Of a stretch of 64,000 nucleotides of DNA, positions 4,338 through 55,794 are shown one piece after another; the stretch's first letter is position 1, and the number at the start of each line of letters is the position of its first letter. The stretch is taken from positions 2,312,501-2,376,500 of the forward strand of contig JAXDDX010000059.1 in assembly GCA_034670405.1 (NCBI GenBank). Reading direction: 5' to 3'. Made by a program: the position numbers and the translations under genes. The notes beneath the pieces were generated by a model. That model was not told the DNA's origin and searched no databases. It saw nothing but the letters and a program-made list of their open reading frames with translations. The stretch is from Hoplostethus atlanticus (taxonomy: Eukaryota > Chordata > Actinopteri > Trachichthyiformes > Trachichthyidae).

Positions 4338-7046
4338 TTACAATGTTGCCCGTGGCATCGCCGTCGAGGTAGTGGGTGTAAAGCGGTCCATCACTCTGTT
4401 GATCCAGCTGGTGTACCTGCAGAGCTTGGTGTAGATGCTGGGGTTAGCTGGGTTTCTGCAGCCAAGTGAGAACCACTGCAGACCCTGCAACTGGCCATCG
4501 CACTCCAGCACACTGCCAGCGTCATTCTGGAGGAGGGAGAGGAAAAGGAGGATTACTGCTATTGTTTTCTTTTTGAATGCTATGTATTCACGTCTTTAGA
4601 CACTCTTGCAATCGCTCATAAAACATTCATGCCAATAAAGCAGGGTGAAGTGAATCGAAATGAGACAGAGCGAGAGAGGAAGAGGCAGAGAGGAAGAGCG
4701 AAAGAAAGAAGGTAGTACTGCAGGAGGATTATGGCAGTGTAGTCCACAGTCTACTTCTGTATACTGTATACTCACCAGGCAGTTGTCTGTGTTGTTTTGA
4801 CCAGCGCAGAGCATGCCATAACTCCAGAACAGGTACTCAGGTAAAGTGTTCATGCAAGTCTGGTCATCCACAATTGGCACAGTTATACACTTCAGGTACT
4901 GTTGAGCCTTGTCTGTGTCGAGGCAGAGGAAGGTAGGAAGGTAGGGTAAAGGGGAGAAGATGGGGTTTCTCACTCTCAACATCACATCATGTTCAGACAA
5001 CCCACTAGTTATACTGGATCCTCTCTCTGTATGTATCTCATCAATAAATGTCCAATAAAAGTCATATTCTTCACCATCATCGTCAACTCTGCCACCCATC
5101 CTATTAATGTGTGTCTTTCCTTCCCTCAAGAGATATTACTTCTTAACATGCACATCCTCATGCACTGCATCTTCCTCACCTGCTCTGTGGCTGTATTAGA
5201 GCCTGAGGACGAACCAGTGTGAGTTTCAAGGCCAATATTTTCTTAATGAACCTTGATTGCTAATTTGAAAATTTTAAAGGCGATTTGAAAACCTGCCGCT
5301 AATAACGGTATTAGAGGCATTTAAGCTGCGACTGAAATTGAATGCTCATACCTTGCTGGAGTTATAATGATCTGAATAGTGATCGGTTTTATTCTTGAGG
5401 TTTCTAGCAAATTGATGCCCACCGGCTAATCAGAATTAATGATAATAAAAAACATTAAAGGTGCATTTTGTCAAAAGTAAGACCACATTTCCCATAAACC
5501 CTGCTGCTTTCTGTCACAAAGAGGATGTTGCCACTACTTGCCCCCTCCCCCCCCTCCCTTTTGTGCCATAAAGCAATATCCCTTTGTGCCGCAAAGCAAT
5601 CCAGCAGATTTCCTGAGGAATCTGACCTGCCAATCTCTTCGCGGATGGTAATTATACTAATCTCTTAGTTAATGTGGTAACCATGTATTGATGTGATGCT
5701 ACATGTAGCACCTTTTAATGCACTCACATTGATTTGGGATGGTGGAGCCCCAGCCGCTGACGCGGCAGGTCGCTCCGGGCTGTGGGCAGTATGTGGGCAG
5801 GGGGATGGGCTGGACGTACTGGCTGAGGCGGGCAGGTTGAGCCAGGCGGACCATAGTGAGGCTGTGTAAGGGTGACCGATAAGGGCTGTGTTGGATCACA
5901 TCAGCCACCTGAATGTGCTGCTCTGTCCCCTCCTCCATCATCAGGTCATGTTCTCCCAGATATGCTATGGTGCTATCGGGTCTGCAGAGGACAGGAGGAG
6001 CGAGGGAGGAGAAGGAGGAGGCATAAGGAGAAGACAGGAGAAGAGAGTAATGGGGGAGAGTATATGCTCTAAAGTATGGAGCTCAATCAGACCCTGGAGG
6101 CCTCAGCCAGACATAGGGAGCACCTTGGAACAACAAGCCTCAGTCAAGGATGAAACAGAGACTGACAGCAGGGCAGTGATTCGGTTTCAATTAGGCAGGT
6201 ACACATGAGTGGGTCTGAAAGTGAAAGACAATCTACAGTGGTTCTGGCTACAATATATAGTGGTACAGTGTTCGTACAGCATGTTGTTGTTCACTAAACC
6301 AGAATACAGAATAGTAAAAATGGCTGAGAGAAAAAACATACTGTATTTTTAATCCCTTCAGTAGTTGGGTGAACCATCAGAAGATGGAAGATGGAAGATC
6401 ATGCTGAAACTGCAGTGATTGATTTAATGGTAGAGGTAGTGAGAAGTAAAAAACAAACAAACATGGTTTCTCATTTGTTGCATTTGTTTGTTATTTCTCA
6501 TTACCAAGATGTTCTGGGAAATTTGGCCTACATAAAACTATAGCTATGCTGCTATCAGACGAAAACATTACGAATCCCAAAGATAACATCTTCAGGAGCT
6601 GAGGAAAAACTGACTTTTTTTTTTTACATTAAATGTGTTTTGAACGAAAGGTCAAAGAATTACCACACAAAATATTTTCCATGCAGCTCATGGAAAACAG
6701 AAGACAAAAACACCAAGAATAATGTTGATTTTCACACGACATCAGCAACAGGTAAGTATACATTAGGAACTACTAGTCCCCTGCACCCACCTGAGTGAGA
6801 AGTAGGCGGTAACTAGCCACCACTCGTTGATCAGGGCACCACTGACGCTTTGTCCTCCACCGTGCAGATAGACCTGCCAGGGCCTGGAGTGAGGCGGACA
6901 GACCTTGTCATCCTCCACAGGAGCCGCCCCTACAACACACCAGCAAAAGAAACTCTATTACCATTTAAGAATAGAGTCTTTGAGGCAACACATGGCGAGT
7001 ACCTACCTGCCAACCCCAAAGCAATCACCGTTAGCAGTAGGTTCAT
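4338..7046 (-). CDS. Trypsinogen-family pseudoprotease (catalytic triad lost)
   Basis: Five coding exons joined in frame: 7046-7007, 6929-6791, 5981-5728, 4912-4776, 4526-4338 (759 nt, 252 residues). Exon sizes of 40, 254 and 137 nt and the intron phases are those of vertebrate trypsinogens. A signal peptide (MNLLLTVIALGLAG) is followed by a remnant pro-region ending EDDK; the IVGG activation sequence is absent, the chain passing from K-V straight to CPPHSRPWQV. The triad is replaced: TAYFS (Phe57) for AAHC, LHSLTMVRL (Ser100) for the Asp102 segment, NDAGS (Ala193) for GDSGG. The S1-pocket Asp is kept (TDNC, residue 187). Cys42 and Cys58, which normally bond to each other, are both Ser, while most other trypsin cysteines remain. 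No frameshift or splice-site damage is seen, so a maintained non-catalytic secreted protein is inferred. I recall fish proteins named trypsinogen-like protein 3 that may be the same family, but could not check. Confidence 0.9.
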
Positions 7047-7120: not shown

Positions 7121-7259
7121 CCTCTCCACCTTGTTCGGGGGCCAATGAGAGGAACACATTTTTTATTGCCATCCAGCATCATTTCCCACTCACCTTTATC
7201 TCCGTCACGCTGTAACGTTATCACCACCACTTCTCGCCACTTGTGTTTACAGCAGGGTC

Positions 7260-8250
7260 AGTGAATGGAACACACCTTATTTATTGTAAATTATTAGCAA
7301 AGAAACAGGAGACAGAAAATGTTATTATGCTGGCAATGAATGTGTCAAAGTGGTCCAGATCTAACAGGGCGCAGACACTCTGAGGTGTACAGGAGATATT
7401 GGTTTTCAGAGGAGAGACATAATAGAGGATTCATTTATGTTGTTTTTGGTTTTTTTTTTGCTGAAGTTTGTGTCTCATTGCTCAGATTAAAGAACAGAAA
7501 AGGTGTGGAGCACAGAAGATTGTCTTGGCTCAGTGGGCTATATTAAACCATTTTTTATGGTCTGCATTTTATACAGTATGTGCACTTTAGAATGGACACT
7601 GCTGCCATTGATGAATAACTAGGACTTTGTGGCGACACAACTGTTGATAAAGGAAATGTTTCACCATGATGCAATATAAAAAGACTTGTTCTAATACCAC
7701 CAAATATCACAGATTGCACAACTTTGACAGGAAACCAAATATGAACTGTTTGTTTTTCAAAATGAATGATCAGATTGGCTCAAGGTGTCATATTACGGTC
7801 TGTGTTATTGATTTCCTGTCAATCCTTCAGCAAAAAGTAATAGGTTCAAAAGAAAAGCATGTTGCAAATCTCTGTATTGATTAGACGTCGTTGCAGTTTT
7901 GTTTCCCTCTCTGCTGCTGTCTTTACTCTCATGTTACCATATTGATGTTTTCTATCCATCCATGATTGATCACAGGTATTTATAGCTTCTGTTCTGGTGT
8001 TGCCTCTGTTGATAAAAGGCTTGTGCCTTGTTGTGGATGCATACAGACGTGAACATGTGATGCAGTACTGTGCTTCAGAGTAATTAAAGTGATCTCAGTA
8101 CTGCAAATATCACTCAGCTATATACTAGAAATATGTACTAACGGTACTTTTAGTCCATTAGAATAATATTATACAATTTGTCATGTCAAATTCAATTCAT
8201 ATTTCATGCTCCAATTTCCAAGACTGAAACACATTGACCACAGACTTTTC
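7260..8250. other. Intergenic DNA, nothing recognised
   Basis: AT-rich unique sequence between the trypsin-like gene and the 3' end of apoC-II. Only short unsupported open frames occur. Confidence 0.6.
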
Positions 8251-37034: not shown

Positions 37035-38535
37035 TTACTTGGTTTTGCTGAAGGACTGGTAGAGGGAGGTGACCTGGGCATGGAGGTCCTGGGAATTGCG
37101 ATTCAGTGTTTCCCCCAGGTACTCAACATAGGGGGCCACCATCTGGTCCAACTGCTGGGCTTTGTTAGCAAGCTCATCCTGAACCGTGTCAACCATGGGG
37201 AACACATATGCCTGGAAGTCCTGCAGGCGCTGGTCCACTGTGTTCTTCAACTCCACGTTGAGGGGGCCCAGCTGAGCCTTCAGCTCCTCGACAGTCAGTA
37301 TCAGCATGGTCTTCAGGGCCGCGGCATCAGTGGACTCATAGGGGGCCAGCTCGTATTTGAGCTGCTGCACCCTCTGCTGGTACTTGGCCTTGATGCCCTC
37401 AGTGTAGGAATCCAGAGTGGCCACGACAGAGCTCAGATCCTGGTTCACATGCTCTATCAGCGCATCAGCCTGTATGATGATCCTCCTTATCAGCCCCAGG
37501 GGAGGCTGGCTGGCTGTATACTGGCTAGCATCGTCATCACCCTTTGGGAAATGGGCACTGGATGAGAGAGAGTTGGTAGAGAAGGTATAGCAAGACAAAG
37601 AGAAAAAGGCATAGTTGAGGTTGGGTCATCATCCAGGAGTTGGGAGTGACTGCATGTCAGACATACACTCACCGGCCACTTTATTAGGTACACCTATCTA
37701 GTACCGGGTAAGACCCCCTTTTACCTCCAGAACAGCCTGACTTCTTCACGGCATGGATTCAATAAGGTACCCTTCTGCACACCACTGTTATAAAAAGCTG
37801 TTATGTGAACATTTGTGGCCTTTCTGTTGGCTTCAGGTCTGCCCATTCACCTCTGACCTCGCTCAAGGTGTTTTTGGCCACAGAACTGCCGCTCTCTAGA
37901 GACTGTAGTGCGTGGGCAGCTGTTTCTGAGATGCTGGAACCACCACGTCTGGCACCAACAATCATGGTCACGCACCTTGCCTATTCTTATGTTTGGTCTA
38001 ACAAAAAACTGAACCACTTGACCATGTCTTCGTTTATATATTGAGTTGCAGCCACATGATTCGCTGTTTGGAGGAGCAATGAGCAGGAGTACCTAATGAA
38101 GTGGCCGGTGAGTACATATCCGTTATCGACATATTTCATGTGACCACTGGTCCCACTTTCATACGACCTACTTGATGTCCTTTCCAGCCGGAGACTTCCT
38201 AATCTGCTGGACAGTGTCATCAGCTGTCTGGGTTACTTTGGCAACGTAGCCCCAGAAGGCATCAGCCAGCAGCTGTGGCTTGGGCTCATTGGCAGAGTGG
38301 CTGGCATGGCAGCCTGTTGGGAGCATCATGTTTTTTGGAGATATGTGGATATTTACTCTAGTACACATTTACCCCTCAGCCAGATCTGAAGAACTTTGTC
38401 TCTAAATGTCTCTAGTGTATCAGGTAATAGTTTTCATGTTTTGTGTTGCACTTTTTATATTTTACTCCAGGAATAATGTTCATGTTCATACTCACCAGTG
38501 AAAGTGGCTAGAGCGAGCACAACAAGTACCTTCAT
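37035..38535 (-). CDS. Divergent apolipoprotein A-IV-like paralogue
   Basis: Three coding exons, 38535-38496, 38313-38172 and 37557-37035, 705 nt, 234 residues, all in frame. Signal peptide MKVLVVLALATFTG and first block NEPKPQLLADAFWGYVAKVTQ closely match the plus-strand apoA-IV gene at 40.1 kb. Compared with it, this protein lacks 11 residues after KTML (the unit around EELKSSLEQS), about six near ASQY, and several helix-punctuating Pro-Tyr pairs (LEPYAEE becomes LDSYTEG, LDPYAQD becomes LNRNSQD). It is intact, so probably still expressed and lipid-binding, but evolving faster. A Tc1-like MITE sits in the intron before the last exon. Opposite orientation to its neighbour suggests an inverted duplication. 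Confidence 0.88.
37664..38115. mobile_element. Tc1/mariner-type MITE in an apoA-IV-like intron
   Basis: Ends are CACTCACCGGCCACTTTATT... on the left and ...TGAAGTGGCCGGTGAGT on the right, inverted repeats of about 28 bases bordered by TA on each side. This is a common fish family with the phrase 'accggccactttattaggtac'. About 450 bp; the transposase is lost. Confidence 0.85.
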
Positions 38536-40099: not shown

Positions 40100-41114
40100 A
40101 TGAAGGTGTTTGTGGTGCTTGCCCTTGCAGTGCTGTCTGGTGAGTAGCAAGTTTGTTTTATGAACTACATCAGGGTAGCATGGTTTCTTAAATAGCTCTA
40201 CATGTGGCTGAAAATCAGTATTGCTCATCAGACTGCCATGCTTTACACCCAACAGGCTGCCATGCCAACCTCTTCTACGCCGATGAGCCCAAACCACAGC
40301 TGGAAGTGTTGACTGATGCCTTCTGGGACTACGTAGCCAAAGCAACCCAGACAGCTGATGACACCCTCCAGATGATCAGGAAGTCTCAGTTCGGACAGGA
40401 CGTCAAGTAAGTAACGTGACATTTGGGAGCAGTGGTGACAGTGACCTATGATGGATATGTGTTGGATATCGATAAACATTGGTATTGGGAACTAACATGT
40501 GTCTTTGTCTCCCTCCCCTGCCCTCTCGCTCATCCAGTGCCCGTCTCACAGAGAGTGCTGACGTAGCTAGCCAGTATGCAGTCACCCTGCAGGAGCAGCT
40601 TCCCCCTATGGCCCAGGAGCTGATGACCAAGATCACCACAGAGGCTGATGTGCTGAGAGAGCGTCTGAACCAGGATCTGAGCTCTGTCAGGGGCAAGCTG
40701 GAGCCCTACGCCGAGGAGATGAAGGCCAAGGTCCAGCAGAGGGTGGAGCAGCTCAAACAGGAGCTGGCCCCCTACGCCGAGTCCCTGGACGCCGAGTCCC
40801 TGAAGACCATGCTGGTGCAGAAGAGCGAGGAGCTGAAGAGCAGCCTGGAGCAGAGTGTCAAGGAGCTGCAGGCTCAGCTGGGCCCCTACACAGAGGAGTT
40901 GAAGCAGACCGTGGACCAGCGCCTTCAGGACTTCCAGCAGAGTGTGGGCCCCATGGCAGACAAGGTCCAAGTTGAGCTGGCTAACAGAGCCAAGCAGGTG
41001 AAACAGCTGGTGGCCCCCTATGCTGAGGACCTGAAGGAAAAGCTGGACCCCTATGCCCAGGACCTCCAGGCCCAGCTCACCGCCCTCTACCAGTCTTACG
41101 TCAACGCCAACTAA
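40100..41114 (+). CDS. apoa4: Apolipoprotein A-IV-like
   Basis: Coding exons 40100-40139, 40256-40406 and 40538-41114, 768 nt, 255 residues. Signal peptide MKVFVVLALAVLSG, conserved N-terminal DAFWDYVAKATQTADDTL, then regular 22-residue amphipathic helices opened by Pro (LEPYAEEMKAKVQQRVEQLK, LAPYAESL, LGPYTEELKQTVDQRLQDF, VAPYAEDL, LDPYAQDL), the hallmark of the apoA-I/A-IV/E family. Function: an exchangeable apolipoprotein of chylomicrons and HDL, made in fish intestine and liver. A-IV rather than A-I is chosen from the overall resemblance to fish apoA-IV and the cluster position; an A-I-like name cannot be wholly excluded. Length fits fish apoA-IV. AATAAA at 41384-41389 is a likely poly(A) signal. 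Confidence 0.9.
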
Positions 41115-48800: not shown

Positions 48801-50749
48801 CATTCCAAAATATCCACCAAATTGTGACACCTGCACAGTAAAATCGGCAGTGTTAGTTTAACGAGGCCAGTGTTTATTTCAGCCCACATCTATCAGTTAT
48901 TTTAACACTTTTAATAACACCTACCCCAGAGCCATATCAGCTCTGAGTGCAAAAGCAACTCTCCAATCAACACTTATAAATACTGCAAAAATGCTGTGTA
49001 CTTTTGGGATTTTTATATTTTGAATGTAAGAATGACTTGCACTGTGCACTCACACTATAGAGGACTTATCACACAGACAACATGCTGTGTGTACATTCGT
49101 TTTCATCTGCCAGGTTCACCAGAGTCTTTTTGGAAGCTCCGCCATGTTCCCCTGAATGCCACCAAGCCCTTCCAGGCGGAGTTCGAGGTTCGTAAAGGAG
49201 CAGGAAACTCTCCAGGCGGCTTTTCCATCGATGACATCAACCTGTCTGAGACGGAGTGTCCACACCATGTCTGGCACATCCCCAACTTTGATGAGTTTCT
49301 GACAAACAGCAGCGTCGGTGCAAGCTTACGGAGCCCGAGGTTCGTAACCAGACAGAGCTATGGACTCCAGCTCTTGTTGCAGCTCTACTCTGGTCGCTTC
49401 GGGGTCTTCTTCCGACTGGCGTCCACTGACTTTGACGACCAGCTCCAGTGGCCGTGTGCTTGGAGACAGGTGACGGTCCTACTACTGGACCAGAGCCACC
49501 ATATCCAGCAGCGGATGTCCAAGCAGTTCAGTATCACAACCAATTCAGAGAGAACATTCACTGGAGGTGAGAGACACCGTGATGCCAAAGACAAAAATGT
49601 TCAAAATCACTGAAAATGTCTCAGGAAATGTGTGATAACATGGAGGGTGTACATTTGGCTTTTGTATTATGTGTTTCACTACAATACAAGGTAATGGGGA
49701 GACATTTTTCTACTGGGACAACCCAAGGAAGGTGGGGCATCTTGTAAATGACTCCAGAGGAGACTCATACTATGCTGGCCCAAACCTTGGCTACCGGTAC
49801 TTCCTGTCTCTCGATGCACTCTGGTCAGGAAACTTTATAAAAGGAGGCGACATCTTCTTTCTTCTCAACTTTGATGGTAGGTGTTACTATAGCTAGTGTT
49901 GATCTGTCCTGGTGTGTCAAGTGCTCTGATTGTAATGTGGGAGTTTAAAATATAGTTAAAGCATCACCAGGTAACATCTCTCCAGTCAGCTTCTATTAAT
50001 CAGCAACTTTCTCATGACAGATTGTCCATGTAAACTGGAAGGTAAGTAGGTTCATAACATCGCTAGATGCAGTAAGGTATCTAGTGATGTTATGTACCAG
50101 GAAATAATTACACCTTTGACCAGGGCCGATGTGCTTGAATCACGTTAGTCATCATTTTTATTTAGTTACAGACTTTTTGACAAACATTAAATTCATCTTT
50201 GTTATTTTGATTTTCAGATTTATCGAGTCTGCATCTGAACAGCTCAGACATTCCTAAGCCTCGCCTGTGGACTAACTTCAGTCACGTCACACTGACGCAC
50301 ACAGGTGACAGAGGGACTTGCCTAAACCAACTGTAAGAGAAATAACTACAAATTTACTATAAAATAATCAAAACTGCTGAGTGTATAGACTGAAAGACAT
50401 AGGCAGGGAAAACACCTGATTACAAAACTACTAATACTGTCTCCCTCCTCTGTCAGGAAGGACAACAACACAACAGCCACCACCTCATTTGCTGTCAGGT
50501 AAGTTTGTCTTGTCTCTCATCTTCAATGAGGGCAGTGATCATAGCACCAGCATCATAGAAGCAAGTGTTTTACTTGTTGTCTCCAGCTGCCTTTACATCC
50601 AGTACTGCTGTAATGTAATCTCTACCATTATCACCATTATAACCACAACAACTATAATCATTGATCTTGCTTTTCCCAGTCTATCCCCAGGAACCATGTT
50701 TTCTCTGCTGACTGCCTCAGTGTTCCTATGGCAACAACCTTACCCATGA
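45806..50749 (+). CDS. Meprin-like astacin metalloprotease 1
   Basis: Eighteen exons in frame: 45806-45862, 45971-45989 (or -45998), 46284-46340, 46437-46474, 46568-46646, 46788-46905, 47019-47197, 47286-47504, 47730-47882, 48033-48077, 48302-48346, 48532-48744, 49114-49566, 49691-49876, 50021-50041, 50218-50332, 50457-50498, 50680-50749; about 702 residues. Order: signal peptide ([15 protein letters not shown]), acidic propeptide, astacin domain with zinc site [12 protein letters not shown] (about 152-163) and Met-turn SVMHY, MAM domain split by two linker exons, then MATH/TRAF domain ([27 protein letters not shown]). Meprins cleave peptides and matrix or mucus proteins at epithelia. Unlike mammalian meprins there is no EGF module or long transmembrane helix; the chain ends with a short hydrophobic stretch ([11 protein letters not shown]) and QQPYP. 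The catalytic motif is complete, so activity is expected. Alpha or beta affinity was not decided. Confidence 0.9.
48033..48346 (+). other. Two 45-nt linker exons of meprin 1, one with a GC donor
   Basis: Exons 48033-48077 (reading [15 protein letters not shown]) and 48302-48346 ([15 protein letters not shown]) are both 45 nt and phase 1-1, so each can be skipped without changing frame. The first ends AATG/GCAAGT, a GC-AG type donor; using the nearby GTACAG instead would shift the frame into a stop. They add Asn-X-Ser/Thr sites inside the MAM domain and have no counterpart in meprins 2 and 3. Confidence 0.6.
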
Positions 50750-54800: not shown

Positions 54801-55794
54801 TACGAGCAACAATATGTACAAATATTCTACCCTCCAGGTGCACCAACATTTCACTGGCAGTTTCATCATGTTCCCCTGAATGCCGCCAAGCCCTTTCCAG
54901 GTGGAGTATGAGGTCCGCAAGGGAGCAGAAAGCTCTCCAGGAGGCTTTTCTATCGACGACATCAATCTGTCTCAGACTACGTGTCCACAGCATGTCTGGC
55001 AAGTTAAGGATTTTGAGAAGCTTTTGACCACCAGTGACTACAACACTCATCTGCTCAGCCCTCGGAAGTACTCCCCAGAGGGCTATGCCTACCAGGTGAC
55101 GATCGCTCTCCGAGAAACCTTCTTTGGAGTTTACGTCCGTTTAGTGTCAGGGGAATACGATGCGTGGCTGGAGTGGCCTTGCCCATGGAGGCAGGTGACC
55201 GTTGTATTACTGGACCAGAACCCTCATCTTCAGCAACATATGTCCAATCAGATCACTATCACCACTGACCCATCGGATGGTGAGTCTATTTTTAGAGATA
55301 TTTCAGTGGTCTATTTTGTTTGACACGATAATCCCTGAGACAAGTTATCATTATGACCACATGTGATATTGTCACCGAGATTTTCTTCCCCTTTTCTGCA
55401 GCTACGTTTGGCTGCCCTCATAATGTCGGAAAACTCATCAAAATGAATGAAGAGCATTTATATGTGAACTCTTACTTGGGTTTCAATTCATTCCTCTCCC
55501 TGGCGTCTCTGAGGGGCAGAGACTTCCTGAAGGGGGGCACCGCCATCTTCCTTTTTTCAATGCAAGGTGTGCTATTATAGCCTCAGATTCACTATCTATC
55601 CTTTCAGCTAATATTATTAGAATATAAACTTTATTGCAGAGGAAATTTTACATTTACCAAACTGTTTTCTGTCTCTAGATATCTCCAGTCTGCAGCAAAA
55701 AAGCTCTCTTCCTTGTCCAGAATTTCTGCCAATCAACTTTACTTCATACCCAAACAACCGTGACGAGGGCCCATGTGGCACAAAGAACTTTTAA
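51880..55794 (+). CDS. Meprin-like astacin metalloprotease 2, interrupted by a one-base frameshift
   Basis: Exons 51880-51927, 52280-52301, 52583-52624, 52868-52899, 52999-53086, 53197-53314, 53421-53599, 53779-53997, 54108-54260, 54490-54708, 54838-55279, 55402-55566, 55679-55794. Signal peptide MYNYIILVASIIHLTK, propeptide with a probable activation site R-N (ARNAVIDRKRLWDLPIPYVL), zinc site [12 protein letters not shown] (about 146-157), Met-turn SLMHY, MAM and MATH domains, and a short tail ending EGPCGTKNF without EGF or membrane helix. In exon 54838-55279 one extra T within 54894-54896 shifts the frame into TGA at 54909-54911, leaving about 397 residues. All other exons, phases and splice sites are intact (613 residues would result without the extra base), so this is a young inactivation, a polymorphism, or a sequence error. 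The protease domain itself precedes the break. Confidence 0.85.
54894..54911 (+). other. Frameshift and premature stop in meprin 2
   Basis: Meprins 1 and 3 read AAGCCCTTCCAGG at this place; here it is AAGCCCTTTCCAGG. The added T follows a short T run, a typical slippage site, and leads to TGA 12 bases later, near the end of the MAM domain. Confidence 0.85.

Follow-up and report, generated by a model that had tools for sequence, protein, structure and literature searches.

A trypsin gene of Hoplostethus atlanticus without its catalytic triad is intact and probably encodes a secreted pseudoprotease

A trypsin gene that has lost all three residues of the catalytic triad raises the question of whether it is on its way to decay or encodes a protein with a role other than proteolysis. 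Such a gene lies in a stretch of 64,000 nucleotides from the fish Hoplostethus atlanticus (genome of 633 Mb), namely contig JAXDDX010000059.1 (C59):2312501-2376500, called the window below. Our preferred reading, to which we give a probability of roughly two in three, is that the gene encodes a secreted trypsin without catalytic activity (an S1A pseudoprotease) that likely binds rather than cuts. By losing catalysis and keeping the fold, an enzyme can acquire new binding functions, and the triad-bearing paralogues on the same contig make this change from enzyme to binding protein traceable residue by residue. The neighbourhood (cbl, trypsins and a lipe gene) also houses the antifreeze glycoprotein genes in Antarctic fishes.

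The gene reads from ATG to TAA through five exons on the minus strand (Table 1) and encodes 252 residues, with GT-AG boundaries at all four introns, intron phases of 1, 2, 1 and 0, and neither a premature stop nor a frameshift. The phases are identical to those of T2, a five-exon trypsin on the same contig, and together with the exon sizes (40/139/254/137/189 nt vs 40/154/260/137/153 nt in T2) they are those of the trypsinogen gene family; exon 1 matches that of T1-T4 in both length and phase. The frame is not a product of chance, since random stretches of the window with the lengths of exons 2-5 are seldom open in one frame (fractions of 0.12, 0.03, 0.13 and 0.06, respectively) and the phases are the same as in T2. 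A preliminary description of this locus had placed the gene at 4338..7046 with a length of 252 residues, which is exact in the spliced minus-strand reading, and its account of five exons of trypsinogen size and phase with no stop, frameshift or bad splice site is likewise confirmed. The Pfam Trypsin profile (PF00089) matches the translation across the whole domain, as in peptidase S1A homologues (E=4.5e-41, residues 23-232 against profile positions 6-220 of 220), and the closest solved structure is TRYPSIN I, PDB 1utj (E=2.8e-47), a salmon protein. No second copy was found among the 36 matches listed in its own genome, where the top match beyond its own exons had 43% identity over one exon. 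A search for orthologues in a genome-contig collection gave nine pattern hits, none of which was confirmed, and no hit in viral contigs, as expected for a fish gene. NCBIfam, which is built for bacteria and archaea, returned no family for the protein, and Rfam returned nothing at gathering scores in the 64-kb window.

Table 1. Features of the triad-less trypsin gene and its surroundings (window positions, unless given in kb of contig C59)
Feature	Position	Strand	Remarks
Triad-less trypsin gene	4338..7046	minus	
Exon 1	7007..7046	minus	40 nt, phase 1; ATG 7044-7046 and most of the signal-peptide-like start MNLLLTVIALGLA
Exon 2	6791..6929	minus	Pro-peptide APVEDDK, then V-C instead of IVGGYE-C
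Exon 2, changes		minus	V23 codon 6901-6903; residues 17-21 missing; C42V; H57F, codon 6799-6801; C58S
Exon 3	5728..5981	minus	D102S is residue S100, codon 5861-5863; C128 and C136 retained
Exon 4	4776..4912	minus	C157, C168, C182 and C191 retained; sequon N184-N185-T186 at 4788-4796
Exon 4, Asp189	4785-4787	minus	Retained; residue D187; adjoins the N-X-T sequon
Exon 5	4338..4526	minus	S195A is residue A193, codon 4518-4520; G193N, S214W, W215F, G216S, G226S
Exon 5, rest		minus	C201, C220 and C232 retained; T/S-rich C-terminal tail; stop 4338-4340
TATA-box-like TATAAA	7115..7120	minus	74 bp upstream of the ATG (T1-T5: 53-65 bp)
Poly(A)-signal-like AATAAA	4141..4146	minus	About 190 bp downstream of the stop
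Apolipoprotein A/E-type exon	37038-37625	minus	Pfam, below cut-off
Apolipoprotein A/E-type exon	40476-41111	plus	Pfam, above cut-off
Meprin-type MAM/MATH or MATH exons	48918-49610, 54880-55320	plus	Pfam
cbl (Cbl_N matches)	C59 2416-2421 kb		Profile matches
Trypsins T1-T6	C59 2425-2458 kb		Cluster
lipeb (HSL_N matches, taken as this gene)	C59 2502-2511 kb		

To see which parts of the enzyme have been lost, we aligned the protein with nine paralogues from this genome that carry the triad (T1-T4, P16a, P6a, P16b, P16c and P6b). The replacements H57F, D102S and S195A and the retention of the S1 aspartate, Asp189, all named in the preliminary description, are borne out by this alignment. Beyond them, residues 17-21 and both C42 and C58 have gone, G193N and remodelled S1 walls are found, the 186-188 loop next to Asp189 at the pocket rim has gained an N-X-T sequon (N184), and the C-terminal tail is longer, with a Thr/Ser-rich stretch that is not in the aligned paralogues. 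An active trypsin has IVGG after the pro-peptide, the triad itself, Gly193 in the oxyanion hole and conserved S1 walls at 214-216 and 226. Here, the activation N-terminus reads DDK-V-C, the triad positions hold F, S and A, and oxyanion hole and walls carry G193N, S214W, W215F, G216S and G226S; Asp189 is as in an active trypsin, and Asp194 and C191-C220 are also kept. For two of the substitutions, G226S and Q192L, the columns vary among the nine paralogues. All 10 cysteines are at invariant trypsin positions (10/12 trypsin cysteines kept) and, in the usual trypsin pairing, would account for five of the six canonical disulfides. The remaining one, 42-58, has gone as a pair, both cysteines being lost with no orphan cysteine left behind. 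Of the four tryptophans that are invariant in the paralogues, only W215 has gone, with W51, W141 and W237 still in place. As read from the sequence, the gene is intact and of trypsin structure and has lost the triad, the activation N-terminus, Gly193 and the 42-58 disulfide; an S1 homologue with the triad gone and the frame intact would be classed as an S1 pseudoprotease (serine protease homologue).

The losses are concentrated around the active site. Among 72 columns that are invariant in the nine paralogues, the triad-less trypsin has lost 18/24 in a catalytic/activation set vs 11/48 elsewhere (Fisher p=3.3e-5), the set having been picked post hoc, with the alignment already seen, by chymotrypsin residue numbers (residues 16-21, 40-43, 55-58, 99-103, 141-143, 189-199, 212-217, 219 and 226-228). 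Within the set, the losses are I16V, G18 and G19 (with the rest of 17-21), C42V, G43S, A56Y, H57F, C58S, D102S, S190N, G193N, S195A, P198V, V213Q, S214W, W215F, G216S and V227I. Those outside, several of which are conservative, are S32Y, M104T, L105M, L158I, Y172L, T177S, G187N, G188N, V200E, A221R and V231L.

Constraint on the rest of the protein was estimated with a custom-written codon model (GY94-type, F3x4) on the triad-less trypsin and eight triad-bearing paralogues from the same genome. The tests left aside T5 and T6 (frame-shifted, with exon 1 of T6 not seen), P16c (a near copy of P16b) and the distant P63a, b and c, and P16a was trimmed at GCALRKKP, its last exon being doubtful. Columns were taken from the pro-peptide on and kept if the triad-less trypsin and at least seven of the nine rows have a codon. 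With the triad-less trypsin at a polytomy (star topology), omega on its branch over all codons was 0.25 (214 codons; 2dlnL of 23.4 vs omega = 1). Two other placements, over all codons, gave 0.04 (0.044, with the branch length at its upper bound; 2dlnL 31.8) and 0.35 (0.346; 2dlnL 11.4), such that omega = 1 is rejected under all three. Outside the catalytic/activation set, omega was about 0.17 (176 codons; 2dlnL 26.5 vs 1 and 0.16 vs the rest of the tree), and inside it was about 1 (1.03; 38 codons; 2dlnL 0.0 vs 1 and 5.99 vs the rest, a value that may be too high because the one-omega fit of this set stopped at a length bound). Five triad-bearing branches served as control foregrounds on a tree without the triad-less trypsin (T1, T2, P6a, P16a and P6b, with T3, T4 and P16b unused), and gave omega of 0.04-0.23 inside the set and 0.11-0.22 outside. 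By this measure, the remainder of the triad-less protein has been constrained over the branch much as in triad-bearing trypsins. The 38-codon set has little power, since omega = 1 inside it was also not rejected at 5% in two of the five controls (2dlnL of 3.66 for T1 and 3.79 for T2, with 10.22 for P6a, 5.15 for P16a and 8.38 for P6b). All these omega values are rough because the branch is very long and its synonymous change saturated, and each is a branch mean that includes the time before the triad was lost.

The branch measures 2.12 changes per column, which fits either an old divergence or fast change. In the tree, the triad-less trypsin is drawn beside P6a with support of 70/55, its position being unsure, and the AU test does not reject alternative clades with T1 and T2 (p=0.285), the P16/P6b group (0.193) or the P63 group (0.313). 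A reading of the gene and P6a as genome-duplication partners was dropped in view of this support and of the alternative clades that pass the AU test.

The strongest competing explanation is that of early decay: catalysis would have been lost fairly recently, constraint would have relaxed, and stops and frameshifts would be absent by luck. An omega of about 1 in the catalytic set, the very long branch and the single copy among the 36 genome matches listed are in keeping with it, and a branch mean would be compatible with constraint having relaxed late on the branch. In the trypsin cluster nearby, T5 and, by our reading, T6 out of six are frame-shifted, which counts for decay here but also against it, since it indicates that decaying trypsins of this region can bear marks. 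Against this explanation, the losses are concentrated at the active site, the omega outside the set equals that of other trypsins, and the 42-58 cysteines were lost together. The gene's GC3 is still 0.67 (T1-T4: 0.69-0.79) vs 0.41 for the GC of its own introns. In 2000 simulations of neutral drift, which included substitutions only and not indels, a stop had arisen by 0.09 substitutions per site in 95%, and 3.6% were stop-free by 0.1. We therefore consider decay unlikely; as far as sequence can tell, a secreted pseudoprotease of long standing accounts for the data better. The preliminary description had argued for selection for a non-proteolytic role over decay, and had counted the three triad replacements as independent evidence. 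Its case for selection is supported in part, by the constraint outside the set and by GC3. The count of three is weakened, because once the first residue was lost the others were free to change.

If the gene does encode an old secreted pseudoprotease, how might its product work? The most likely mechanism is that the protein carries a signal peptide and is secreted, given its trypsinogen-like signal and pro-peptide, and adopts the trypsin fold with one of the six disulfides missing. It would never be activated and would stay inactive. Its role would be to bind a partner, probably in the gut or another digestive epithelium, and the contact would be made by a part of the surface that lies outside the former S1 cleft. 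The cleft has been free to change and the rest has been held, which would place the retained function in the fold and outer surface and suggests binding instead of cutting. More tentatively, and at a little short of even confidence, we picture a long-established teleost trypsin whose entire machinery for catalysis and activation has gone and whose defunct S1 pocket has acquired a glycosylation site at its entrance. Its fold would since have been held as tightly as in working trypsins, making it a secreted binder with an undescribed partner.

A different use of the same protein was imagined in the preliminary description, in which the retained Asp189 would let it bind trypsin substrates or inhibitors as a decoy. 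Asp189, Asp194, C191-C220 and the EDDK of the pro-peptide are all kept, as this explanation would have it. The step from Asp189 to binding is nevertheless weak, because both the pocket and the strand to which canonical inhibitors bind are altered by S190N, Q192L, G193N, S214W, W215F, G216S and G226S, and the new sequon adjoins in the 186-188 loop. In trypsin, the new N-terminus drives the zymogen-to-active switch that shapes S1, and with residues 17-21 missing this switch should not occur. Binding through the S1 pocket is thus unlikely for an aspartate that sits in a rebuilt cleft beside a new sequon, and we regard the decoy as possible yet improbable.

The secreted binder that we favor differs from known systems in several respects. 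It shares with triad-bearing fish trypsins (1utj; T1-T4) the family, the gene structure (phases of T2), 10 of 12 cysteines, the signal-like start and the pro-peptide, and differs from them in being without the triad, IVGG and the 42-58 cysteines and in having altered S1 walls, the pocket-rim sequon and the C-terminal tail. The vertebrate S1 pseudoproteases haptoglobin, azurocidin, HGF/MSP and protein Z have kept the S1 fold for binding after losing catalysis, and by analogy the triad-less trypsin may do the same. Unlike them, it has a plain trypsinogen architecture and retains neither the activation N-terminus nor any residue of the triad, and its near-neutral pI of 6.3 sets it apart from azurocidin, which is basic. 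A search by title and abstract, with few subscription journals covered, found no paper on the function of such a fish protein.

For the site of action, the gut is our best guess, from the name of a sea-bass transcript and from weak promoter hints. In Table 4 of PMC5968468, where annotation was against nr and Swiss-Prot, a sea-bass transcript of the intestinal mucosa with the best-BLAST name 'Trypsinogen-like protein 3' is down 1.9-fold on one diet. This fish gut transcript is named trypsinogen-like, not trypsin, and may, by name only, be a relative of the triad-less trypsin. The Swiss-Prot 'Trypsinogen-like protein 3' is presumably a winter flounder entry without active-site residues; if so, that entry and the triad-less trypsin may well be orthologous, and databases already contain this class. 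Upstream of the gene lie an HNF1-like site at 7286 (palindromic, counted on both strands; 0.062 expected) and a CDX2-like site at 7161 (0.044 expected), which are a mere hint of gut expression as the motifs were chosen after the sequence had been seen. A bipartite PTF1-type pattern was absent upstream of the triad-less trypsin, and the scan is uninformative since the pattern was also missing from T1, T2, T4 and T5, with T3 alone having one.

The neighbourhood of the gene recalls a known locus. In their relevant passages, PMC10256766 and PMC10910785 place trypsinogens, tlp, cbl and hsl (lipeb) at the notothenioid AFGP/TLP locus, PMC11708224 does so for trypsinogens and tlp, and tlp is described as the gene that gave rise to the antifreeze glycoprotein genes (PMC10256766). 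Like that locus, the contig studied here carries cbl, trypsins and a lipe gene together, at 97-191 kb from the triad-less trypsin. That the latter is the counterpart of tlp, judged by locus position, is nonetheless highly improbable despite these shared names, as tlp and cbl are near each other in the account of PMC10910785, whereas the triad-less trypsin is about 97 kb from cbl and about 106 kb from T1 and is another gene than the triad-intact T1 of different exon structure that is nearest cbl (2425-2427 kb, with Cbl_N at 2416-2421 kb) and holds the cbl-side place. A clade of the triad-less trypsin with T1 and T2 is neither supported nor rejected (AU p=0.285). By position, T1 (C59:2425256-2426970, minus; exon 3 split by an extra intron) is a possible counterpart of tlp. 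Apolipoproteins and meprins, the types to which Pfam likens other exons of the window, are not among the genes named at the AFGP/TLP locus in those passages of PMC10256766 and PMC10910785. The list of neighbours is partial, Pfam having been run on 19 of the 218 window open frames of at least 70 codons. The two apolipoprotein A/E-type exons sit on opposite strands.

Several other trypsins of this genome have features of their own. T5 (C59:2446461-2447932, plus) is tryp1-like and has six exons, and an out-of-frame gap at its IVGG codons breaks the frame, which probably reflects either recent pseudogenization or a mistake in the assembly. T6 (C59 at about 2457138-2458265, plus) has, by our reading, a frameshift shortly before its fifth exon ends, and its exon 1 was not seen in the 340 bp upstream. 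P6b (C6:6572500-6577500) has an intact triad with D189S, G219D and G226S, and its S1 specificity is probably altered. Some 6 kb away from P6a (C6:9634500-9640000), a second lipe gene is marked by HSL_N matches (C6:9644671-9647234), an arrangement that mirrors the trypsins near lipe on C59 and is perhaps the trace of a duplicated region.
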